Shown piece by piece: positions 1 to 41,100 of a stretch of 64,000 nucleotides of DNA; positions within the stretch are counted from its first letter, which is position 1; every line of letters starts with the position of its first letter. Position numbers and translations under genes: made by a program. The notes under the pieces were generated by a model. The model made no database searches. It was not told the DNA's origin and worked only from the letters and a program-made list of their open reading frames with translations. The DNA lies in contig OX031060.1 in the NCBI GenBank assembly GCA_943736015.1, positions 5,159,501 to 5,223,500 of the forward strand. The letters are read 5' to 3'. This DNA comes from Tridacna crocea. Taxonomy: Eukaryota; Mollusca; Bivalvia; Cardiida; Cardiidae.

Positions 1-408
1 GAACTATTGAACAAATATTACAAGGAATTAATGGTGTTGAATGCATTCTTGATGATATGGTAATCACAGGTAAGACAGACGACAAACATTTAGAAAAATT
101 AGAAATGGTTTTGTCAAGACTAGCTCGGTATAATTTGAAAGTGAATAGAGATAAATGTTCTTTTTTCCAAGAACGTATAACTTACTGTGGTCATGAAATT
201 GATAAGCATGGGTTGTGGAAAAGCAAAGAAAAAGTCGATGCTGTACTAAATAGCCCAAGACCGCACAATGTCACAACGCTTCGTGCATATCTAGGTCTTC
301 TGAACTATTATCATAGATTTTTGAACAACCTTTCAACTGTTGTCAAACCTTTAAATGAACTTCTTGAGAAAAATAAGAATTTTGAATGGTCAAAAAAGTG
401 TGAATTAA
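1..408 (+). mobile_element. Ty3/gypsy-type retrotransposon pol fossil, fragment
   Basis: The first 400 bases read as reverse transcriptase of the Ty3/gypsy class. The catalytic block appears as LDDMVITG, followed by KCSFF, YCGHEID and LRAYLGLLNYYHRF, the usual order at the end of the RT palm and thumb. Homology stops near 405, and no LTR, integrase or gag is visible inside the window. It is an old, broken fragment whose upstream part may lie beyond the left edge. Confidence 0.85.
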
Positions 409-820
409 AATCGTATCGACCCGGTTCCACCCGTATAGACCCGCATTGTAAACCGTGTAAATTCCTGATGGATTCATGGGCTACGATACGGACGGGAAAA
501 AAATTTGGTCATATTCAAAATTTTGGCACGGATTTCATTTCCGTATTGAAATCCGTTATGGCCCGGTTCAAACCGCACTGACTCGCATCGACCCTCTTCA
601 GTCCGCAGCATAAAACCGCATCTAGCCTTTTCGTATACCCATTGATACCGTATTGCCTTCAAGTAACTGATTTGACAAGGTATACATCCGGGTCTTTACT
701 GGTCGATGCGGGTCGACAGGGGTCGAAAAGGTTTGAGTTAAGGATTTAAAGCAGATTTCTATACGGTTCGAGACAGCCAAACTGGGTTGATAAGGAATTA
801 ATACGGGTTGATGAGGGTCG
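409..820. other. GACCCG / CGGGTC-rich stretch
   Basis: No gene is seen. The left half is full of GACCCG and ACCCGT words and the right half of CGGGTC and GGGTCGA words, so the two halves are loosely complementary, like a decayed fold-back element. GGGTCGAAA recurs after the next MITE near 1362, so this MITE may have split a larger unit. Confidence 0.4.
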
Positions 821-3969: not shown

Positions 3970-4910
3970 AACGTCGTTAAGGCATCATTTCTGATGTGTA
4001 TGTACATAAACTCTGTAGAGTCTTAATTTCGGTTTTGTATGTACCTTAACTCTTTAGGGTCTTCATATCTGTTGTGTATGTACCATATCTCTTTAGAGTC
4101 ATCATTTCTGTTGTCCCTGTACCTTATCTCTTTAGAGTATTCGTTTCTGTTGTGTATGTACCAAAACTCTTTGGAGTTTTCATTCATATCTGTTGTGTTT
4201 GTACCTAAACTCTTTCGAGTCTTCGTTTTTGTTGTGTATGTACCTTATCTCTTTAGAGTCATCATTTCTGTTTTGTATGTGCCTGATCTCTTTAGAGTCT
4301 TCATTTCCCTTTTGGTGCACCTAAATGTTTGTGAGTCATCATCATTGTTGTTATGAACCTAATCTAGTTAAAGTCTTTATCAATGTTGTGTACGAACCCC
4401 CCGGACCCCCCCCCCCCACCCTCTGGATCCGCCAGTGGCACTGAATCTCTTTAGAGTCATCATTTCTGTTGTGTATATACCTAATCTCTTTAGAGTCTTC
4501 ATCACAGTTTTGTAGGCACCTAATCTCTTTAGAGTATCAGTCAATGTTGTGTATGTACCTAATCTCTTTAGAGTCTTCATCACAGTTGTGTAGGCACCTA
4601 ATCTCTTTAGAGTATCAGTCAATGTTGTGTATGTACCTAATCTCTTTAGAGTCTTCATCACAATTGTGTAGGCACCTAATCTCTTTAGAGTATTAGTCAC
4701 TGTTGTGTATGTACCTAATCTCTTTAGAGTCTTCATCATGGTTGCCATGTACCTTATATCCTAAGAGTATTCATCACGTTTGTCTATGTACCTAATCTCC
4801 TTTAGTCATCTATGTTGTCTCTCATCTAAGAGTCCTTATCAAATTTAGGTACCTTATCTCTCTTGAGTCCTCATTCCTGTTATCTATGTACCTAATCTTT
4901 TTAGATAACC
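3970..4910. repeat. 39-bp satellite, array 2, with 78-bp higher-order part
   Basis: Same satellite as 1762-2617. At about 4485-4760 two alternating unit types (TCATCACAGTTGTGTAGGCA and TATCAGTCAATGTTGTGTAT) repeat as a 78-bp dimer with few differences, so this core expanded most recently. A poly-C tract lies at about 4401-4419. The opening of this array resembles array 1 near 1849, so the two arrays share an ancestor longer than one unit. Confidence 0.9.
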
Positions 4911-7726: not shown

Positions 7727-7949
7727 TTAACCCATTACCACAATATCCCTACTTTTTGACGCCCCTGAGAAAGAAGCCTTTAGAAAACATTGTAGAAAAA
7801 AAAGAAAATGCTGGTAACCATCATTTTCTCCTTTTCCCACAATGTTTTCTACCCTTCACAAAACAAATTTCCAGTCACTTTTATTATGTCGTCTGCAAAT
7901 GCTTTCAATTTGGAGAAGTCTTTAATATTGTCGTTTGGTAATGAGTTAA
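7727..7949 (+). mobile_element. Family A hairpin MITE
   Basis: Both ends are intact (TTAACCCATTACCA and GGTAATGAGTTAA). The left stem arm carries an A-rich substitution cluster, so the hairpin is imperfect. Confidence 0.9.
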
Positions 7950-8313
7950 GAGGCCTTGACTATGGTTGACCGTCATCTTTTCGTGATCTACGGTCCGAAA
8001 CACGTTACATATAACCCTAAGACTGCTAAGCAAGACGCGTTGCACTTTTTCAGAGAGTGTAGAACAATAATAGACTTCATAAAACGTGCAGACTGATCGT
8101 TGATCTATGCTGTACGATACAGTACTTAGTTTCTTTCCGATGAAATCAGCTTTAAATCGTATTACTGGTGTTTTACTATTGTACCGAAAGTTTAGTTTCA
8201 GTTATTTAGCTGTTTGAGGGTAAGTAGATTCTAGATCTAGTTCCCAAAGTAGAAGCAAAGTCATTTTCTGAAAAAAAAACCACATATCTAGGACCTGTCT
8301 TGTTAAACCTAAA

Positions 8314-15463: not shown

Positions 15464-18425
15464 CCCTTCACCTGTATCTCCGTTCTCCTTAACTAATCAT
15501 CGCTTGCAAAAAATATAAATTTCGATGTTACCTTGATTTTCGCTTACACGGGTGTGTAGAATAATTATTTTTCTATCCGGGCATAGCGTCGAAAGTAACA
15601 AAATAAACCAAATTCAGGAAGGAACCAACTTGTTTTAAACTCACCCCTCGTTCGAAATTCCAACCGCCATGTTCCTATTACCCCGTTCTCAATGACGTCA
15701 TCATTATTGTAGCTACAAGCATGCACACAATTGGGTCATATCTATACAGCACGAAAAAGATTAGGCATCGGACATTTCATAGACTTGTCCAATACTCAAA
15801 ATAATTTCGTTTTTGAGCTTATCTGGGTCATTTTCAAACAGACCTAGACAAAAATAAGCCAGAAAATCCAGCTTCATAAGTATGGTTGCATTTGATATAA
15901 ATATCTACCACCCATGAATATCCCAAATTACTTTCAATAACTGAACCTAAAACCAACATAACAGATTAAAGATAAATTTCAAATACAAAATAAACATATT
16001 TACAACTTGAAAATGTTAACAAACATTTTATTCTGAACAATGAGGGCACAGAAATGTGCTGTGCCTTCTAATGGCAGACTCCTTCGTGCAGAACTTGACA
16101 TGAACCCAATGTGTGCAGCCAGGGTTGTCAATTTCACCCACTTTACGATGATCAAATAGGGATAATCTCTCAGTCCTTCAGGGGAATGTAGCTTACAAAC
16201 ACAGCAAGCGTCTGATGATGATGTATCATCCATTTCAGTATCACTAGTGTCACTAGGTTGGTGTACAGCCAAGTTCTTAGACTGTATTCCACTTGTTGAT
16301 GGCTTTGGTGATGATCGGATAGGTCGTTTGGCAGATTTTTTACTATTATTCTTTATTTTTTTCAGATTAGATAATGTGGATTTTTCTAGCTCATACTGTA
16401 CAAGTTTGTTGTGGTATGAATCCTCTGTAATGGCCAACCCACCAGCTCTTGGTCTTGAGGTAGCACTAACAGTACAAATGCTTTGAGAATTTTGGTTTTG
16501 ATTTTCAGATTTTTGGGTCTTTTTCTCAGATTTTTCTACAAGGAATTTGTTCACTTCTTCTCTGTTGATCTTCATGGCAGTGACCTTTTTCACTGGCTGC
16601 TCCTCTCGGAAAACCTCTGCTGGATAAAGTTTATCAGCTGAAACAACTTTTCTCGAGTATGGATATATTCCTGTTTTTCTGAAAGCAGTTTGAATGTTCG
16701 TTGGGGTCATGGCTTTGAGGTAGGCTTTACATCCAATCTCGCACATGTTGTACCTTGTGACTACTTCCCCCATGTTCTTCTTCATAAACATACTACACTC
16801 AGCATGGTAATATGATTTAAAAGGTCCATAGATACCAACATCTAGTGGCTGCAGCAAATGACTAGTATGAGGGGGCAATACAAATAGGATCAGATTTTTT
16901 TCTTTCGCCCAATCAATCAGAGAAGTAGAGATGTGAGATGAGTGACCATCATAAAGCAGAAGTAAAGGCTGTGACGTATCAGTTGAAAATCTTACGTAAG
17001 GCAAAAAGTGCTCCTCAAGGTATTTATGGAAGATGGTAGAGTTAGACCATCCACTATCAGACAAAACTCCTCTAGCTCCAGGGCTGGCTCCCTTCATTAG
17101 GTCTGGATTCCACCTTTTCCCTTTAAATACAAAGTATGGAGGCAGACTGTTGCCAATGGCGTTGGCACACCCAATTAATGTGACAGTGGTTGACTTAGGT
17201 GAGACTATCGCCTGAGGTTTACTGTTTGGTGCAGCAATGATATTTGGTGGTTTGTGATAAGGCTGTAATCCTGTCTCGTCCAAATTGAAAATGTGCGTTG
17301 GCTTGTCTTTTAAGTCATATTTTTGAAGAATTTCACTCAGATTGTCATAATAAGATGAGATCTGTTCAGGAGTTGCACTTTTCGCACGACAACTTTCCAG
17401 ACTTCTTGGATTTAGAGAGGTTAGCTTATGTTTCCAACGCCCAAGAAACCCATAGAGCCAACAATTGCTCAAGGCTTTTTGTGTTTTCTTATGCCCAAAC
17501 TGGAAGGCTAGTTCACCACCCAGATGCTGAAGCTGAACATTTGTGTATCCATAGCCGAGTTCTGCCAATGTCAAAACATGCTCTACAAGAATCTCTTCTT
17601 CTTTGAACGAGAGTAAAGTGTCTGGACCAGGAGCACAGTTATCTAGATCTACAAGACCTATAACCCTATCTCTGAGTGTCTGAGCCGGTATGCCATACTT
17701 TCTAGCAGTTGTTTTTATAGGGTGACCTTTTTTAACTTCATTGTAAGCCTTCAGCATCACTTCATTTGTGTAAGCTGATTTATTTCTGCCCTTCACTTTC
17801 TTTTGAGGATGTATCTGTGAAGGAAAATAAAACTTTGTATACTTTTTTTTTCATTTGTTTATTCACTTACCTGTCTAGATCTAATAATGTTGGACAAATC
17901 TGTCATCAAAAAATTGCGTATGATTTATACTAATTTTCTTTTAAACTTTTATTTTCTTATTTCTTACATTCTCTCATGCACATTTATCATGATAAGGCAT
18001 TAACAATGTTTCGTATATGAAAGTATCACGAAAAACCAAGATCTCCAAGTACAAGAAACTTAACTTTCTTTTGAACAGTATACATTCTTGAGTAATCACG
18101 TGACTTCAGTATGTCACGTGACAAGTACTAACCCTGAACGCTAACGCGGTATCTGTCAAAAGTTTAACATTTAAAAAAAGTAGAATTTACGGACAAATTG
18201 GTTCATAAAATGGTGTCAGGTGATTGATTTTTTTTTTATTTTCGACAAAAACATTATTTTTTCGTATTTTTTCATTCAAATTACCTGTTTTTTCCTCATT
18301 TCTTCGGCTGCACTGTAAACACAGACTTGTAAACATCCGGCGTCGACTGTTTGCGTCACTAGATCGCACGCGCTGTATCAAGCGTTTTTACGATGCGGAC
18401 GGAGAAATAGGAAGGAACGGAGATA
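15464..18425 (-). mobile_element. Pogo/Tigger-like DNA transposon
   Basis: About 2.96 kb inserted in the fold-back arm, flanked by TA. TATCTCCGTTC at 15475-15485 is mirrored at 18415-18425 as a short inverted repeat; the left end carries about 11 further bases outside it. It holds one transposase gene on the minus strand. Short TIRs and a TA target fit the Tc1/mariner/pogo group. Confidence 0.8.
16000..17906 (-). CDS. Pogo/jerky-type transposase (psq HTH, CENP-B HTH, DDE_1, PHD-like tail)
   Basis: This protein should bind its transposon ends and cut and paste them in the nucleus. In the main exon (16000-17814), residues 8-45 form a pipsqueak-type helix-turn-helix. Residues 63-155 resemble a CENP-B DNA-binding domain. 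The DDE_1 core has D173 (IFNLDETGLQP), D283 (LLYDGHSSHIS) and D319 (LLQPLDVG), a DD35D spacing. A basic linker and a Cys-rich tail CCVC follow. I place the start at an ATG at 17906: exon 1 (17871-17906, MTDLSNIIRSRQ) joins across a 56-bp GTAAGT...CAG intron (17815-17870) in phase 0. The tail is damaged: after VKWV another frame continues EIDNPGCTHWVH, CTKES and LCPHC, restoring a PHD-like finger, so one indel near 16140 separates them. About 600 aa is normal for the family. Confidence 0.88.
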
Positions 18426-19249: not shown

Positions 19250-21108
19250 CTTGTATAAAGCTGTAAGGACAGACCCCTACCAGTCTTCTAGAGACTAGTC
19301 TGAAACGATATGTACAGTTTTAAGTCAATAAAACTTGTATAAAGCTGTATGAATAGACCCCGATCAGTCTTCTACAGACCAGTCTCAAACGGTGTGTACA
19401 GTTGTAGGTCAATAAAACTAGTATAAAGTCGTAAGAATAGACCCCATCAGTCTTCTGGAGACCAGTCTCAAACAGTGTGTACTGTTGTAGGTCAACAAGA
19501 AATCAAGAATATATCTGAGTGCTTTTGAAAAAACCTATTTGTCTAGAAAAATGAGTTTAATTTGGTTTATTTCCTTCGGTTTTGCACAAAAAACCATACA
19601 TGCTCTTCAGAATTCAATTTTGAACATTTATTATTGATCTCATAGTGGCATTGTCTTCGACAAAGCCCACAACTAGTATAGAGTTTTACGAATCGACCCA
19701 GATCAGACTTCTAAGGACCAGTCTCAAATGGTGTGTACAGTTTTAAGTGTGTAAAACTGGTATAAAGCTGTGTGAATCGACCCCGATCAGTCTTCTACGG
19801 ACCAGTCTCAAACGGTGTGTACAGTTGTAAGTCAATGAAACTGGTATAAAGCTGTGTGAATGGACCCCGATCAGTCCTCTAGGGACCAGTCTCAAATGGT
19901 GTGTACGGTTTTCGGTCAGTGAAACTGGTATAAAGCTGTGTGAATGGACCCCGATCAGTCCTCTAGGGACCAGTCTCAAACGGTGTGTACAGTTTTCGGT
20001 CAGTAAAACTGGTAAAAAACTGTGTGAATGGACCCCGATCAGTCTTCTAGGGACCAGTCTCAAACGGTGTGTACAGTTTTCGGTCAGTAAAACTGGTATA
20101 AAGCTGTGTGAATAGACCCCGATCAGTCTTCTAGGGACCAGTCTCAAACGGTGTGTACAGTTTTCGGTCAGTAAAACTGGTAAAAAACTGTGTGAATGGA
20201 CCCCGATCAGTCCTCTAGGGACCAGTCTCAAACGGTGTGCTCGGTTTTGAGTCAGTAAAACTGACTTAAAGCTGTGTGAATGGACCGCGATCGGTCCTCT
20301 AGGGACCAGTCTCAAACGGTGTGTACAGTTTTAAGCCAATAAAACTGGTATAAAGCCGTGTGAATAGACCCAGATCAGTCTTCTACAGGCCACTCTCAAA
20401 CGGTGTGTACAGTTGTAAGTCAATAAAACTTGTATAAAGTTGTTTGAACAGACCCCGATCAGTCTTCTGGAGATCAGTCTTAAAGGGTGTATACACTTTT
20501 TAGTCAATAAAACTAGTACAAAGTTGTATTAATAGATCACGACCAGTTTTCTAGAGACCAGTCCCAAACGGTGTGTACAGTTGTGACTCAGTTAAACTAA
20601 TATAAAGTTGTTTGAACACACTCCGATCAGTCTTCTGGAGACTAGTCTCAAACAGTGTGTACAGTTAAAAATCAATAAAACTTGTATAAAGTTGTTTGAA
20701 CAGACCCCGAGCAGTCTTCTGGAGACCAGTTTCAAACGGTGTATACACTTTTTAGTCAATAAAACTAGCATAAAGTTGTATCAGTCGACCCCGACCAGTC
20801 TTCTAGAGACCAGTCTCAAACGGTGTGTACAGTTATAAGTCAATAAATTAGTAAAAAGTTTATTGAACAGACCCCGATCAGTCTTCCGGAGACCAGTCTA
20901 AAACGGTGTATACACTTTTTAGTCAATAAAACTAGTATAAAGTTGTATTAATCGACCCCGATCAGTCTTCTAGAGACCACTCTCAAATGGTGTGCACAGT
21001 TGTAAGTCAATAAATTAGTATAAAGTTGTTTGAACAGACCCTGATCAGTCTTCTGGAGACCAGTCTCAAACAGTGTGCAGACTTTTTAGTATATAAAACT
21101 TGTATAAA
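19250..21108. repeat. 84-bp satellite array
   Basis: About 20 units of 84 bp, each containing GACCCCGATCAGTCTTCTAG, GACCAGTCTCAAACGGTGTG and TACAGTTTT. The block 19500-19672 is an unrelated insertion or decayed part. Units at 19743-20315 are the most alike. As 84 is divisible by three, a 190-codon minus-strand frame with a 28-residue period stays open; it has no start context or composition of a real protein. Confidence 0.95.
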
Positions 21109-29103: not shown

Positions 29104-32100
29104 GTTAGTACTGTGACGGTATTGAAGTTCTCATATCTACTTCATTGTGTTTGATAGTTAACCTTTTACCCCATAAGGCATTTGTATGGTATCTCTAATT
29201 GACCCCAAATGACAGTAAGGATGAAGCTGTTTCTTATGTGTATATGACACCTTTTGATAGTATAGAAAACATTGTGGCAAAAGGTGAAATTGCTCATCAC
29301 GGGCAATTTCACCTTTTGCAACAATGTTTTCCAAAGGCTCCTACAAGCAATGCGTAGAAAAGAGTATCTATGGAGTAAAGGGTTAACCCTTAGGCTGCTA
29401 AGCGCAAGTTGAGCACTATTGTATACAGGATAGATGAAGATCAGACTGGACAAAGCATGCAGCCTGCAGCCTGATTTTTCATCTACAATTTCTGATTCGA
29501 TATTTTTCCCCTGTAGAAATCAACTTAGAAAATGCAATATCCTTATTTTCAGTACTGAGTGGAAATTTTTGTTTCATTTCTGCAGTAATTTAATGGTTAA
29601 GATACAGCTGGCAAATTATTTCAGCAGGTTTAATCTATTGCCACAGAATGCCAAGTTTAAACGACCGTGAGGAAGACAGCTCTTGAAAACATTGTGTGAA
29701 AAGGTCATACAGTTGTAATGGACCCAACAAAATTCATTCGTTATCAGTGTAATGACTGTGATGAGAGTAAAAAATTATGTTTGATTGACAGATGTATAAT
29801 ACTTTACCACACAATTCTGAGTTTAACCCATACCAGACGACAATATTTTAGACTGGTCCAAATTGAAAGCATTTGCAGACGACAAAATACAAGTGACTGA
29901 AAATTTGAAATTTGGTTTGTGAAGGGTAGAAAACATTGTGGGAAAAGGAGAAAATGCTGGTTACCAGCATTTTCTCCTTTTCCCACAATGTTTTCTAAAG
30001 GCTTCTTTCTCAGGGGCGTCAAAAGTAGGGATTGTGTGGTAATGGGTTAACCCATTACCACACAATCCCTACTTTTGACGCCCCTGACAAAGAAGCCTTT
30101 TGAAAACACTGTGCGAAAAGGAGAAAATGCTGGTAACCAGCATTTTCTCCTTTTTCCACTGTGTTTTCCACCCTTCCCAGAACAAATTTCACTTTTTCAG
30201 TCACCTTTATTTTGCCGCCTGCAAATGCTTTCAATTTGGACCAGTCTAAAATTTCCTCGTGTGGTAACGAGTTAAACAACCCTTAAGAAGAAGCCTTTTG
30301 AAATTATTCTGGGAAAAGGAGAAAATGCTGGTAACTAGCATTTTCTCCTTTTCCCACAATGTTTTTTTACTGTAGAAAATACAAATTCCATCATTTGAGC
30401 CAAACTTTCCTTGTCTTGTGCAAATGCTCTCAGTTTAGACAAATCTACATTGTTAGCTATGCGCAGCACAAAGTACGTGGGGTGATCAAAAAGATCGTGG
30501 ACTACCTTGTTATTTTGAAAACTACTACACGTAGAATTACAAGATTTTGCATAGATGAGCACCAATTATCTGGTAACTGGCTCAAGCTTTCAAATGTCGT
30601 AATATTCAGGTAGGTAAAGTATGACGTCATCTTAATGATGTCATATACCGCATTAGCGGATTAAAATATTGGACAACGTTTTATTTGAGCTGGGAGTAAT
30701 CATAAAGTTTTACATCAAACTCGAAAAGTGTTTATCGGAAATCAAAAGGTATTTAGAACCAGTTGAAGGGGACTCTGTGCTCAAGAAATCTGATATTTCG
30801 TCGGTGGGCGAACAAAACCTCGTATATCGATTTTTGGCGAAAATTGGATTTCAACGGTTTTGCAATCAACGGTATGTCCCCCAGCTTGTCTAGAAAAATC
30901 GTACAAATCGGCCAATTATAAATGATGATTTATGACATGTGACTAAACATCGTATTTGGATTGGATGATTTTTTTTGCTCCCAAAATCTCGTAAAATGAA
31001 GACAGTGCACCTGGTTTACTTCGATGCTGAAGATCGGACGTTTTTCTTCTGTGATTGAGCATTTTAAGGTAAGTGAGTATTTCTTAATGATTTCTTTGAA
31101 CAATATGATACAAAACGGCACATGTTGATGCATTTTACACTGATATATCAATGAAATACTCCATCAAGACGACAGAGGTTCATGTTACTCAATTTATACG
31201 AAGTATAAATCGAACACACGCCTTACCAACTGAATTCTAAAGAAATATCATGTAGTATAAACACATTTTATTAGACTTTTTTAATGGTTTGTCAAGTTTT
31301 TCTGCAGTTTGAAATAGTTCTGATTTTATACGACATTTCTGCATGGTTTGATGAGCACGGGAGAACTTTTTTACGACATTTTGGGGTTTGAATAGCACAC
31401 GAATTTTGTCTTGAAATGTTCACTAAATCTGCTTAATATAGTGGTTGTAACAAATAGAATTGTATCTCCAACCAGTGTAAAATGCAAGAATTACTTATGC
31501 TTTGATGATGACTTTTTTTCACTTTTTTTTTCTTTCAGACAATGACTTGTACTCCTCCAAGTTCCGACGAAGAATTTTTGATAGAATGGATATGCCAAAT
31601 ATGTTGCAATAAAGCAAAGGATAGTTTAAAACTTGAATATGAACATTTACCAGGTGACAAAGTTATTTTGACAGACTCAAACGGTGACAGCTGGTTGTTT
31701 TGTATGGGGTGCAAATACCAATACCATTTGAAGTGTGTGAGAAATCTGCCAAAGGATATAACCCCAGAAGCACTTGGCTCAGAATACTATTGTGAAGACT
31801 GTGGTTGGTTCGTTGAAGGCGCATATGACTCTGAATAGTTAAATTGAATACGATAATTTGAATCCCATACAGATTTTTGAAAGTAATGTGGTTATATGAA
31901 CTAAAAAAAGTTTCAGCCAAACTTTGATGTTTTCTAGTTTGGAAAAATGGCGTCTAGAGGAAAATATCTTGTCCAACTATCATTGCAGAAAAAGCATCAG
32001 GCACTGGCCACACTAGGTCACACAAAAGATAATACTTGGGCGAAACCTGTTGAGATAAACACACAATTTGATGAAAACAAAGCAATTAGTGAACATTTAG

Positions 32101-35100
32101 ACGATGTGAATTGTCAAGAAAGTACTAGTTCACATTTTAGAATTCAGGGAAAAACAGTTGTAAACACGACTCACGTCGATCTTGAATGTAATGAAAGTGA
32201 TGATTTAAGTGATTCTTTTTCTGACGAAGATCTAGACAGTGTTAGTGACCCAATTTGGAAACCAAAAAAGACTGATTTACATGAAAGTGATAGCGACTCT
32301 ACTTTGAAAAAAGACAAAATTTCAAAGAAGTCAAAACCCAAGAAGAATATAGAAAAAGAAGACGTCATTGATATCAACAATAATCCCAAAGATAAAGAAA
32401 CAGCAATCAGACGGGATAGTACAAACACTGCAAAACAAAAACAACCTTACACCTACGACCTAATTGACATAGAGTTACAAGACGTTGAAGCTCTCGACCA
32501 CGAAGAAATCATAGAAAGTGATGAGAAAGATCACGAAGGAAAGAAAAGGAATCGTACAGCAGACCCTGCTACTTGGGAGAGAAACATTAACAAACGTCTA
32601 CGCATGGAAGGCAAAGGATACAAAAGTGTGAAAAGGGATGCTAATAAAACCTACAACGTTGTAAACAAAAACGCCAGATCTCTTTTTCCAAGAAGTTGTT
32701 CTAAAAGGTGCGAAAAAAGATCAAAAGGCAGGATCTGCACACAATTTACAGAGAAAGACAGAGAAGAAATTTTCGAAGGATTCTGGAAAAATATGGACTG
32801 GGACGGCAAAAAAGTGTATGTAATCGGTCTCGTAGACTGCAGAAAATGTGACGCTAAAGAAGGAGGCAGACGGGGAAGCACTTATCTTTATCATCTTAAG
32901 AAGGATGGGGTCAAACTACCGGTATGCAAAAACATGTTTTTGTCTACTCTTGCTATTGGAGAAAAATCCGTCTATGGCTGGATGGAGCAGGCAAGTCAGA
33001 ATAGTGGAACTCCTGGTAAACCACAAAGATTGTCTAGAGGAATGAGAACCAAAGAGATAAGAGAATCAGCTGAAAAGTTTCTTGATGTAATACCGAAGAT
33101 GCCATCGCATTATTGTCGAACTAGTACGTCAAAAGTTTATGTTGAGCCAACCTTTACATCATTTTCAGAACTTTACAAAGTCTATGGTGACCATTGTTTA
33201 ACACATAACACCCTTTGTGCAAGTCGGAGGGTGTTTTCAGATGTTTTTAGAGAAAAGAACATGTCACTCTTTAAACCAAAGAAAGATCAATGTGATCTTT
33301 GTTGCAGTTTTGAGACCGGTAACGCAACAGAGGCAGAATACAACGAGCACATCAAAATGAAAGAAGAAGCAAGAGTAGAAAAGAGTAAAGACAAAGAATT
33401 GGCCATGACAGACGAAGAAGTGAAAGTTATTACTGTAGATTTGCAGGCCGTTTTACTAGCTCCATTTGTACAAGCAAGTGGCATGTACTATAAAACGAAA
33501 CTAGCCTGTCACAATTACACGATTTATGACCTAAGCACAAAAGATGTTTTCTTGTACTTTTGGCACGAGGGCGAGGGTGACTTAAGCGCGAGTTCATTTG
33601 CGTCGTGTCTAACGGACTTCATAAATAATGTCCCTGAAAAGATTAAAGAGCTTGTGATATTTAGTGATGGGTGCACATACCAAAACAGAAATGTTGTATT
33701 AGCTAATGCATTGCTGAAGTTGTCGATTGAAAGGAACATCGTGATCATGCAAAAGTATCTCACGAAGGGTCACACGCAAATGGAATGTGACAGCGTGCAC
33801 AGCACAATAGAAACGAAAAAACGTGGTAAGCCCATCTACAGTCCTCACAATTATGTAGAAATGAGAGAAGCAAGGCCAACACACAAGTACTGTGTTAAAT
33901 ATTTGACGCATGAGTTTTTCTCGGACTACAAAAAGCTGACAACATATTCTTCCATACGGCCCGGAGTAAAACCAGGAGATCCAGTAGTGACAGACATTTG
34001 CTGCTTGAAATACATATCAGACGGCAGAATTTTGTACAAACTCCGATTTCCAGAGGAGTATCGCGAGCTACATAAAAAAACAACACGACAAACAGTTCAG
34101 ACTGAGAACCAGATCCAACCTCCGAGACTACATGCCTCACCAATTCCAATAAAAGGCAGTAAATTTAACCACTTACAAGAATTAAAATCTGTAATTCCTG
34201 CGGATTACCATGGATTTTATGACACGCTGCCACATTATTAAACCGACCTATTTGAAGTAGAACAGAAAAAGATAACGGAAATACAATTTTCTGTAGATGA
34301 AAGTACATCATTGATGATGTAAAAGTGTTAGCTTCCTGATAATTCTAAAACGAATTTGTGTGTTTTTTACTTTGCTAATCATTTCACTGTCATATCAGTA
34401 TCCAGATCTGCTATTTTACATTTTTCAAAGTCATCCTTTTGGAATTTCCAGTCGATAATAGCCAACCCCTTTTTTTACTCTAATTCTAGTTTGCAATCTG
34501 AGCCACCTGCTTTGCCGATCAGTTGGTATGGATTTCAAACTAAAATTTAATCATGCAATCCTCTAAAAGCCATCAACACTTTTGTCTTTACAGCATGGCT
34601 ATGCATGTGAACGGTATAGATCTATGACCAGGCTGCATTTTCTGCATCCTGAACCTGATCTATGCCGTCCACAAAACTTTTGTTCGAGTTTTATGGAGCC
34701 TCTAAAAGTTTAAGATGGCTGGAAAAGAAGAAAAATTATGTTAGCGAGTATGCAAGATTAAGTTCAAAAAGTGTGAATTTTTTTTTATTATTGAAGTCTG
34801 TTAACACCTTACCAAACGACAAAATTTATTAACTCAACCAAATTGAAAGCATTGTGGGAAGACAGATTTTACTCAAATGTTTGGACTTATCTTTGATAGG
34901 GAAGAAAACATTGTGGAAAAAGGAGAAATGCTGGTTACCAGCATTTTCTCTTTTTCCTACAATGTTTTGAAAAAAACTTTGTCACCAGGATCGTTAAAAA
35001 AGGGGGTTGTTTGGTAAAGGGTTACAGTAAAACTGAGCCGACGTATAATTACAGAATGACGCTTAGATTTATCCATTGTAATTAATTTTGTTACGGAGCT

Positions 35101-38100
35101 GATGAACAAATGACGCTCTTGTTTTTTTCATGTATCTTTTTTTGAGATGTTTGTTAGATCAGGAACGATCTAGAAGAGATAAACTGTGCTTCATTTTTTC
35201 GTTGTAGATGATAACTAAGAACAAGTGTTATCTACCAGATAGTTACTTTTTTCTTTTTCTAAAACCCACAGCCCATACTTAAAAAGGTGACAAACGCAAA
35301 GTATAAATTTCTACTATTTGTAGTTTCTTTCAAGAGGTGTTTGTTCCATACAATTCGCGATTTGGTTCTATTTGCCAGTAAAATGATATTTAAAAGGGTT
35401 GTTATATTTCTAGTTAGTGAATCAAGAAATCGTAAAACGAATCCGAGGGTCTCAGAAATCTCGTATATGTCGTATACCAGTTTGTATAAAAAATATTTTT
35501 CACCAAAAAGTCATATAAGAAATAATGTATCACCATTGTAATGTACGACATTACAGCTAATTCGCAAGTTGTCATATGAATAAAGCATTTGCTTGGACAC
35601 AGTAACAATGTAGTCAACAATCGCAAAATATCTGTATTTCAAAAATATTCAGTTTTTTTCGTTTCCTGAAAAATGCTAAATTTTGTTTTACGACATTTTG
35701 CTAGCCCAACGACGATTTGTACATTGATCGGACTGGTTTAGACAATGGTGCGATACCGTAAAAGATGACATTGAATCTGGCAGTCCATCATCATTAATCA
35801 CAAACAAAACCACAACGGCTGTAGAGCACCATGTAAAACAAGATCGCCTAGATACTGTCAGGAAAATAGCTTATAAATTTGACCTTTAATATAGAAGCGT
35901 CCACCAGATTTTGACACAGTATCTGGGAAAGTAGCGTAATTGCACGGTGCGAGTACCTCGGCAACTGACGCTTGAGAAAATTGCGGTTGGGATCGAAATC
36001 TTTAAAAAGAAAATCTGAATGCATTAGGGTAGAGGGGTCAAATTTTACTGATCGTATAATAATATGCTATGAAAGATAGGCACACAGTAACACGACTGAA
36101 TATAAACAGCAAAGCAGTGTTTTGAAACATTCAGCAGCGCCTTCTGCTGGTAAAGCTAACCTTTCTAAGTCACTTGGAAAAGTTATCTTTATCAAGTATC
36201 CCTGTTATCCTGTTTTTCTTATAAGTTATGTTGTATCTATGCATACCACAGTCAAAAGTGAGTTTTATGCTCACACTATTCAGATGAATTTCAAATACAT
36301 GGTACGAAAAACTTAGCCAGAAGTCCTGCAGGGTGACGTCACTTTACACCAAAATAACGCCCTAGCCCAGAGCCACACTTGTACTGGAAACTTTGTAAAA
36401 ACTAAACATGGAAAAACTTAGCAATGCTCCGTATAATTTAGTCCTTACTCAATGTGCCCTCTGACTAATACCTGTTTTGAAAGATTATCTATGTGGCATG
36501 CACTAAGAGAGCAGAGAGGAGCTAGCCCTCGCTAAAACCAGGTCCTTGATGGTAACGTCATGTGATGCCTTCCTGCACGTGCTTCGCTCATGGAAATCAA
36601 GAATGAATAAGTGCATAGAACTCAAGAGGAGGTTATTTTCAAAATTTCAAAAATAGTGAACACTCCAAGTTGCTTTTTATAACAATATTCCGATACCGGC
36701 ACTGGTCCACGTTCTTTCTGATCACTCCTCATACACAAGGTGAACTTTTGGGATTGTGCTGTGTCTTTCATATGTCATGAGTTGTCTGTTGGCCATGATA
36801 AGAAATAACTTTAGGTGCACCATAGAAGCCAGATTTTGAGTCTGATACTCATAAAAATTGGTCAGACTGTTTGTCTTGATAATATCCTTGACAAGTTTGA
36901 AATCAGGTCTTGTTGACTCAGAAAGTAGGTCACTTGGCCAAATCATACATTAAACCTTCAATCTGTAAACTCTAGAGGCCATGTTGTCAGTCTGATACAA
37001 ATGAAACTTGGTCAGAATGTTTGTCTGATTGTTATCTTGAAAAACTTTGAAATTGGGTCATGTCTGGTGAAAAAGTATGTCACTTGGCCCAATCTTAGGA
37101 AAACCTTGTATGAAACCTAGAGGCTACATTTTAAGCCAAATACTTACGAAATTTGGTTAGAATCTTTATCTTGATGATATCTGAGAAAAGTTTCAAATGG
37201 GTCATATTCCATCAAAAAGTAATAATGATGTGATAATCTTAGAAAAACTAAGAATTTTGAATTTTTGAAGCCTTTTGAAAATGAAGAATTGGAAAAAACA
37301 GCTATGGGTATTTGATAAGTTTGCACATTCCACAGTAATAGTCCTGTGTCTTTAACACTTTACTCCATAGATACTCATAGATACTCATTTCTACACATTG
37401 TTTGTAGGAGCCTTTGGAAAACATTGTAGCAAAAGGTGAAATTGCTCCTGAAGAGCAATTTCACCTTTTGTCACAATGTTTTCTATACTATCAAAGGGGG
37501 TCAAATACACATAAGAAACAGCTTCATCCTTGCTGTTATTTAGGGTCAATTAGAGATACCATTGAAATGCCTTATGGGGTAAAGGGTTTAAACATTCAAG
37601 GATAGTTTTTATATATAAATGGTGGAAGGGTAACCCAAGTAGAGATAGTCAATCCTACTTCAACTGCATATTCTTTTGTGACAAAAACAGTTTAGTAGCC
37701 ATCACCAATCTCTGATGGCTCTTGGTTTTACTGTATTCTTTTACTTGTACATTTTGGTTTTACTGGTTAGTCACTGCCAGTTAAAGAGATTCAGGCCCTC
37801 ATGGGCTTATTGTTCAGATTTGTTTGCATGGCAAACTGGGTTTTCACTTGAAGTGTAAAGAGGACTTTGGTAAGATCATTTTTATGAAATTTTGTTTTAT
37901 CTGGATTTTCAGTTTCAAATATAAGAAATTAAAAGATTGACTGCACAATGCACACAGGTCTAGGATATAAACCAGCCTCTTGCCAGTGGAGCCAAATAAC
38001 ACAAATGTATAGCAAATTGAGATGTACATGTACATGTACATGTATTGATGTTAATCTATTTTTTTTAATCCTTATCCCAGGTGAGCTTTTCATGCTCCTT

Positions 38101-41100
38101 TTGAGCCTCATGTCATTTTGTTTGATTTCATAATAGAGATTTCTTTTGCAGCTCATCAGCAGCATTCATTCAGTGAGGAGAATTTATAGAGGAAAATCAA
38201 TACTTCTCGATCAGCTAGCTCGATCAACACCAAGACCCTCTTGGGCCGTGACTCAGCGTGGTATGTTTTGCTTTCTTTATTACAATACCATATTTTTTTA
38301 TTTGTAAATGTAGGCCTCTGGCCCATAATACAACATTTCATTTACAATGAAAACAACAGAGTTACAATTACATTTGAGCCATAACCTGTGAAAAAGGAAG
38401 CTTCATGCATCTGTAGAAATTTTTAAACCAGACCAGCCAGCCTGATTGTTTAAAAAAGTGAATGTTATGGATCCATTAGTATATAATAACTAGCTTGGTA
38501 TGATGGATTACAGAGATGCACTAAGCCCCCATTTTCAGAGCATGGCTTGATTACATGTAACATAAAATCACTGTAACCTTTATCCTGCTAAATCTACATA
38601 AATAAAACAGCAGATAATCAAAGAAATCTAAAATATTGCTATTTTATAGTTTATTATTGGGGGTATAATATCTAACCATCGGACTGTGGTAATCCAAGAT
38701 CAGACGGCACGTTCTGTGCAGTCTGATCTTGAGTTACACCACTCTCACAAGCTGAATGAATAATACTTACCAGCCTATAGGTTAACTACTTTGATAAGCA
38801 TCCTTTAATGTTAAAATTGTTGAAATGTATTTTGCTACTTTTCTAATGGTTACTAAATTTTTGCTTTTCAGTAAGTTATAAAAAGACATTATATCTTTTC
38901 TACCTTGATACCATGAGAACAATAATGTTTGTCTTTCTGCATTAAACAGAGAACAATGGAAAAAACAGTGATATTCAGTTTCTACAACTAAAATGTCATG
39001 ATTTAATAAACAATGGTGACACACCCTGTCATCTCTTTCTATGTTAAAATGTCTACCTAGCTCTATACTTAATTTACGATTAGAACACCTAAATCTTGCG
39101 AGAGCTCTTGTTAAACTCGGGGAAATATCCACACATAGATATTTCTTCGGATTTAACAAGGAAAATATATGTTTATATAAATCACACCGAGGAGAATTTT
39201 GAATTGACTCATTCAAATTTTGTAGTGAACAGTCCGAAATTCTTCTCTTAAAGAGCTTAACAAAGTGATCAGTGTCCCCTAGGTCTTGTGAAAGCCACGC
39301 ATAAGCAAAACCATTTGTACAAAGAAGATTTTTAACTTGTGTGACCCAACTGGTTCTACCAAGATAGGCATGTGCCTTAAGCATCTTATAACACTGCTTG
39401 GGAAAACGATGATTATCCATACGTAATAGTTTACATCAATATTTAACCTCTTTAGTTTTATAAGTAACATAGAATGGTAGTCTACCACATTCAGATAATA
39501 CAATACAGTTGTTAACTGAATGATTAACACCTAAAAATTCTCGACAAAATTTTAATTGAACATTTTCAATAATCTCGGAATACTCGTAGCCCCATAGCTC
39601 TGCACCAAATGTGAGGATGGGTAAGACCATTGCATCAAATAGTTTAAAGTATTCCTTATGCAGAAAGAAGCCAAATTTATACTGATATGATTTAATAGAA
39701 AATATTGCCTTTTTTGCTTGTGACGCAAGTTTGTATTTTGAAGCAGACCATGAAAGTTTGGATGTTAACAACAGACCCATATACTTATACACTGAAGTGG
39801 TTTTTACTCGTAAGCCATCAAAGTACCATTTTTCACTCATTTTCAGGGGACCACCGTTTCTAAAAACCATGATTTCTGTTTTACTTAAGTTCACGGAAAT
39901 TTTTGTTTCATGACAATTCGGATAGTTTATTGAGTTGTAACTGTAGATTATTTACTGTGTCCGCGCAATGAGCAACATCGTCTGCATACAACAAGCAAGA
40001 GATAGGTGAAATTTCATCAGATATATATATCCCGGGACAGGTTTCTCTAATAAGGGTAGATAACTCTTGAATGAATAAGTTGAATATTATCGGACTGCTT
40101 ACGTCCCCTTGTCTCGTTCCTATATTACAAAGAAATGGCGCTGTGATTTTGTGTGATACACGTAGGGTTGCTTTTAAATTAGAGTACATGTCCAAAAGTA
40201 GATAAAACATTTTTCCTCTTAGGCCTCTTTTGAATAAAATGCTGAACAACTCATTATGCACTATCGAATCAAAAGCTTTTTTAAAATCCACATAAAGAAC
40301 ATAAAATCGACCCCCAGTTTTTCCAGTATATTTCTGTATCATGCTTTGTAATGTAAATGGATTATCTATAACTGAGTAACCTGCTCGAAATCCCGCTTGA
40401 CTTTCGTCTATTATTTCAAACCTGTCAGCCCAATGATATATCCTATCATTAAGAATATTTGAAAAAATTTTATACACAACATTAATTAAGGAAATTCCTC
40501 TATAGTTCAAAGGATCATCTTGCGAACCGAATTTATATATAGGTACTAAAATGCTTTCGCACCATGATCTTGGAAAACTACCATAATTAAATATTTCATT
40601 GAAAATCAATACGAGAGTTGGAGTTACAATATGACAGGTATGTTTGTAAAATTCAGCTGAGATTCCATCTTTACCAGGTGCTTTACCATTTTTAAGTTTA
40701 CCAATGCCCTTTCTAACTTCAAATTCTGTAATGGGGGAGTTCAATATCATGTCATGATCATCTAGTATGTCGTCTGCTTCCCAATGTCTCTCGGTAGGAT
40801 TAACCTGATCACTATTATACAATAATTTTTTGAAGTAAGTTAGCCATTTACCAACATTTTCCTCTCCTATAATGCAAGCTGTAGATCTATTTTCGCTCCC
40901 CGTTTTAAGAACCCTCCAAAAATCAGTCGGATTATTACTACTATTTATTAATGTTTGGCGTTTATCAAGTAAAAATCTGGATTTTTTCCGCCAGCATATG
41001 GATTTGAAATAATTGCGAGCTTCAATCTGCTCATTGTAGTGTCATGGGTTTTCACGCTTTTTTGGCGATCTATTTTTTCGTCACAATTACTTTTTGGTGA

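Follow-up and report, generated by a model that had tools for sequence, protein, structure and literature searches.

Contig OX031060.1 of the bivalve Tridacna crocea (assembly GCA_943736015.1) contains, within a stretch of 64,000 nucleotides (positions 5,159,501 to 5,223,500 of the forward strand; here called the window, whose own numbering is used throughout), a decayed mariner transposon (30474–36733, + strand, both TA dinucleotides included) that is split by an insert of 4,916 bp (30799–35714, + strand). The insert, which is very probably a cut-and-paste transposon, is delimited by the break in the mariner, by an exact target-site duplication (TSD) of the sequence ATTT on the left (30795–30798) and on the right (35715–35718), and by terminal inverted repeats (TIRs). 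It carries two open genes: gene 1 for a PHD-finger protein of 98 residues (31542–31838, + strand) and gene 2 for a putative DDE/D transposase of 764 residues (31947–34241, + strand). The ends of a jumping element can be read here to the base, and borders that are set by the target provide exact ends with which relatives can be looked for and transposition can be tested.

The termini of the mariner are at positions 30476 and 36731, each within a TA dinucleotide, and its inverted ends are identical in 22 of 28 bases. Residues 49–345 of Mos1 align with the 3′ flank of the insert with a frameshift-tolerant score of 75, whereas the maximum for 60 random segments of the window was 45. The approximately 303 aligned codons contain 5 stops, and the alignment has 13 frameshift marks; LHDN, the motif of the second catalytic aspartate, has become LHQN. 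It is by these stops, frameshifts and the LHQN motif that the dead target differs from mariner and Mos1, with which it has the TA, the TIRs and the colinear remains of 3′ coding sequence in common. The 5′ flank scored 37 in the same test, with a non-colinear alignment to Mos1 residues 318–345, and this is chance level (n = 100; 95% limit 38, maximum 42). A stop-free peptide of 44 residues from this flank resembles Mos1 residues 14–40 and is colinear with the 3′ flank, the similarity being weak (the score was equalled by 4 of 500 shuffles and by 16 of 500 peptides from the window). The Pfam and PDB sequence collections gave no mariner match for the mariner pieces, and the identification is therefore based on the Mos1 alignment of the 3′ flank and on the TIR/TA structure.

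The insert ends in the 11-mers CGTCGGTGGGC (left) and CGTCGTTGGGC (right), which differ in a single base. A weaker similarity extends to 40 bp (left TIR, 30799–30838, + strand; right TIR, 35675–35714, − strand), with 29 of 40 positions identical and a score of 18; for 300 random pairs of 200-bp segments the mean was 10.5, the 95% limit 14 and the maximum 56. When up to two mismatches are allowed, the terminal 11-mer matches six times in the window, both ends included, where 5.03 matches are expected. The TIRs and the 4-bp repeat are persuasive because they are located where the mariner is cut. The original prediction, made from the letters without database searches, had described a mariner with inverted ends and TA flanks, and within it an insert with exactly these borders, the duplicated ATTT and inverted ends, all of which was confirmed to the base; it had also stated that about 1.34 kb remain when the insert is removed, and subtraction of the insert and of a single ATTT from the mariner span indeed leaves 1,340 bp, counting both TAs. 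The claim that the mariner transposase is cut after VLKKSDI and resumes at DWFRQWCDT stands only in part: the mariner is cut there, but the two peptides are read in different frames on the two sides of the junction. Because the coding halves differ in frame, the mariner frame is broken at the junction independently of the insert.

Overlooked in that prediction was an enrichment of the pentamer TCGTA near the ends of the insert. It was noticed in a repeat search, after which all 396 5-mers were ranked for enrichment in the outer non-coding parts of the insert (30799–31541 and 35025–35714, with 34242–34800 left out). TCGTA is at the top of this ranking, with 12 copies versus 1.01 expected (P = 9.5e-10, uncorrected). 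The left cluster comprises seven copies in both orientations (30820–31376; 0.51 expected in 743 bp, P = 1.2e-6) and the right cluster five copies, again in both orientations (35430–35693; 0.48 expected in 690 bp, P = 1.4e-4); all five on the right are within the final 300 bp, a limit that was set post hoc. By eye, the copies have a context of approximately AAATGTCGTAWAW in common on both strands. In the coding part of the insert TCGTA is found four times (1.87 expected), and none of 1,126 windows of 743 bp beyond the locus holds at least five copies. The enrichment supports both borders of the insert. Subterminal repeats to which a transposase binds typically appear as such clusters, and the TCGTA repeats may well be binding sites of this kind.

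The protein of gene 1 has a PHD domain (PF00628; E 3.8e-7, 30.5 bits, above the cut-off of 24 bits), and its comparison with PDB sequences yielded five weak matches only, the best with an E value of 0.093. Gene 2 has no internal stop; in 200 shuffles of the insert the longest open reading frame from stop to stop was 181 codons. NCBIfam gave no match for either protein. Upstream of gene 1 a putative intron in the 5′ untranslated region (31069–31538, + strand; AAG/GTAAGTGAGT ... TTTCTTTCAG/ACAATG) was recognized from sequence only, and the intron may alternatively use an acceptor that ends at 31937, which is 9 bp upstream of the ATG of gene 2. The strong donor at 31068/31069 together with the acceptors at 31538 and 31937 suggests that both genes have a 5′ exon in common. 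There are four AATAAA in the insert, and the sole one downstream of gene 2 (35579–35584, + strand) is a candidate polyadenylation signal. A search of the whole window with Rfam at gathering thresholds found no match.

Its position within the mariner makes the insert the younger of the two elements. How much younger is indicated by the stops: the two genes of the insert together comprise 862 codons, for which the stop density of the mariner predicts approximately 14 stops, and none was found. If both elements decayed neutrally at one rate, the mariner was therefore dead well before the insertion, which supports the earlier view of a two-gene insert that is younger than its stop-ridden target. 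Nested in the insert itself is a copy of 224 bp (34801–35024) of a palindromic miniature inverted-repeat transposable element (MITE). The family is represented in the window by 30 merged loci, 16 of them near full length, and the 15 other near-full-length copies are 71–75% identical to the nested one. The insert has either received this copy since its arrival or belongs to a family that already carried it. The MITE is approximately 225 bp long, with ends TTAACYCATTACCA and a central hairpin around GGAGAAAATGCTGGT; examples are found at 7728–7952, 29823–30399 and 62656–63054.

A catalytic region of gene 2 is proposed for residues 486–660 (33402–33926, + strand), which contain VDLQ, SDGCTYQN and GHTQMECDSVHSTIE, on the basis of a similarity to DUF7869 (PF25273) and of a partially RNase-H-like order of structural elements. 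DUF7869, the sole Pfam match of gene 2 that is of relevance here, matches the whole protein with 17.5 bits (E 0.0032) and residues 486–660 with 21.6 bits (E 1.8e-4), in both cases below the family cut-off of 26 bits. The similar part spans 87 residues around the proposed second aspartate and the third acid, among them the motifs SDG and GHTQMECD. Candidate catalytic acids would be D498, D574 and D615, with E613 or E622 as alternatives for the third. Two structural models, each predicted from the single sequence, are poor (mean predicted local distance difference test values of 33 and 44). Both show a hairpin, a helix, a strand ending at D574, a helix and a strand, and the second adds a helix over D615; with low confidence, this order is like that which follows the first strand in an RNase H fold. 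In a PDB fold search with the second model the best match was a subunit of the African swine fever virus RNA polymerase (E 0.014), and in the viral library the best E value was 0.010. Among the 50 PDB fold matches listed were many Argonautes, which are RNase-H-like, but none was significant and they are not counted as support. A weak match of gene 2 to SMI1_KNR4 (E 0.14) was disregarded. Many proteins encoded by animal genomes have a GHTxMExD motif, which is a lead rather than a test. Should DUF7869-like proteins turn out to be transposases, this would give a function to a Pfam family that has no name so far.

Taken together, we give a probability of about 85% to the interpretation that 30799–35714 is a cut-and-paste transposon with these borders that was inserted into an already dead mariner. 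Several results speak against it. The insert is known from a single copy, and within the 64-kb window no second copy of either the insert or the mariner was found. TCGTA does not occur in the non-coding part 34242–34800 (0.39 expected). The DUF7869 match is below the cut-off, and nothing found marks DUF7869 as a transposase; neither poor model has a strand at D498, the proposed first aspartate, and the fold searches of PDB and of the viral library returned no match at E ≤0.001. The likeness to Sola2 transposons discussed below concerns described features only. Finally, TIRs and TSD of this quality are at chance level when the ends may lie anywhere near the genes: the 3-kb zones flanking the genes contain three pairs, the present one counted, of inverted 11-mers with 10 of 11 positions identical and an exact 4-bp repeat, and 200 random pairs of 3-kb zones average 2.5 such pairs, 76% having at least one. 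This frequency, and the weak protein support for the 5′ flank of the mariner, would fit a locus at which the true ends are elsewhere, the TIR/TSD pair is a chance pick near the break, and a rearrangement of another kind split the mariner. We consider this very improbable, for when the cuts are restricted to 45 bp each, only 6 of 20,000 random 45-bp pairs match the observed TIR and TSD quality, the mariner is bounded at both of its outer ends by TA and by its own TIRs, and the TCGTA clusters are at both ends of the insert and not in the mariner flanks (one and two copies; 0.23 and 0.71 expected).

If the insert is a cut-and-paste transposon, it looks like one of the ordinary kind rather than one with a new mechanism. 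The 764-residue protein would be the transposase, would bind to the CGTCG inverted ends and to the nearby TCGTA repeats, and would excise the element precisely at the CGTCG ends. The element would then be joined to an AT-rich target with a stagger of 4 bp, and gap repair would yield the ATTT on either side. The PHD-finger protein, presumably made via alternative splicing from the 5′ exon common to both genes, could be an accessory partner that reads chromatin. With such a partner the insert would be an example, open to experimental test, of a transposon supplying its own reader of chromatin.

The window contains further mobile elements and repeats. On the − strand at 16000–17850 there is an open pogo/Tigger-like transposase of 616 residues (DDE_1, E 7.3e-22), the C-terminus of which (CCVCKLHSPEGL...) resembles a damaged zinc finger; gene 1 has no similarity to this open reading frame (E 0.53). 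A reverse-transcriptase remnant is distributed over three stop-to-stop frames that abut or overlap at 38782–41041 (− strand; RVT_1 E 2.1e-25 for the part 39908–41041), and a reverse-transcriptase fragment at 3–581 (+ strand; RVT_1 E 2.1e-10) is truncated by the edge of the window. At 19253–21108 an 84-bp unit is repeated in tandem, and the array shows higher periods of 168 and 252 bp. Two other arrays, at 1766–2585 and 3985–4805, have a similar 39-bp unit (CTCTTTAGAGTCTTCAT...), with higher periods of 117 and 249 bp in the first and of 78 bp in the second.

Relatives of the gene 2 protein were searched for in phages, plasmids, viral contigs and prokaryote genomes, and none was confirmed, which is to be expected of a eukaryotic element. 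The insert DNA was not found in E. coli genomes, and gene 2 had no match in PHROGs and none at E 10 among PDB sequences. A search of one virus record for DUF7869 gave no match and is uninformative, since 14 control genomes were equally silent. In the viral contigs a pattern derived from the TIRs hit 10 loci and a pattern derived from the catalytic motifs hit 2; these were rejected as relatives, as none of the 12 (L001–L012) matches the insert DNA at E 0.01, and the sole protein match at E ≤1 (L001, E 0.12) is by eye an isolated GHTRMELD stretch within DNA of high GC content. A literature search, with most subscription journals outside its scope, found no mention of DUF7869 in 5.39 million papers and, among the papers listed, no description of a transposon of the 4-bp-duplicating or Sola type that has a PHD gene. 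The absence of relatives from the collections searched and of DUF7869 from these papers, and the fact that no Pfam transposase model matches gene 2 at E 10, would be in line with a transposase outside the named DDE/D superfamilies, characterized by a DUF7869-like core, CGTCG ends, TCGTA repeats and a PHD partner gene. We regard this as unlikely: some named superfamilies may have no Pfam model, so that the silence of Pfam weighs little, the collections searched include no set of animal genomes, and the ends and the duplication agree with those of Sola2 as far as the available text of PMC3627910 describes them. It is equally doubtful that the insert is the type of a separate animal lineage of cut-and-paste transposons with a DUF7869-like transposase, CGTCG ends, TCGTA repeats as subterminal binding sites, 4-bp AT-rich targets and a separately encoded PHD partner that perhaps steers integration through the reading of chromatin.

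Two named kinds of transposon with 4-bp duplications were compared with the insert. Kolobok resembles the insert in the length of the duplication and, in its two-gene lineages, in the number of genes, but according to the portion of PMC9587614 at hand it duplicates TTAA, and Kolobok is ruled out because the duplication here is ATTT. For Sola2, the available text of PMC3627910 describes 4-bp AT-rich duplications that include ATTT and AWWT, short imperfect TIRs of 12–21 bp and one large transposase; the insert agrees in the duplication, in its short imperfect TIRs and in having one large putative transposase (888 residues in Sola2, 764 in the insert), and differs in its PHD partner gene, which goes unmentioned for Sola2 in that text. 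Sola transposons in general are described, in the part of PMC10741241 consulted, as having a DDD transposase, 4-bp duplications, TIRs of 11–1124 bp and mostly a size of 2–9 kb, ranges in which the insert falls with its 4,916 bp and its 11-bp tip with one mismatch. Bivalves carry both Sola1 and Sola2, the mean length of Sola1 being 5,445 bp (PMC10294476, in excerpt). The suggestion in the original prediction that the insert may represent an undescribed family is therefore not borne out by duplication, TIR length or size, all of which agree with these partial descriptions of Sola and Sola2. Since the comparison with Sola is one of descriptions only, the insert can neither be assigned to Sola nor be declared new. 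By its duplication, ends and size, and by published descriptions rather than by protein sequence, it resembles Sola2 more than any other named kind, and there is roughly an even chance that it belongs there.

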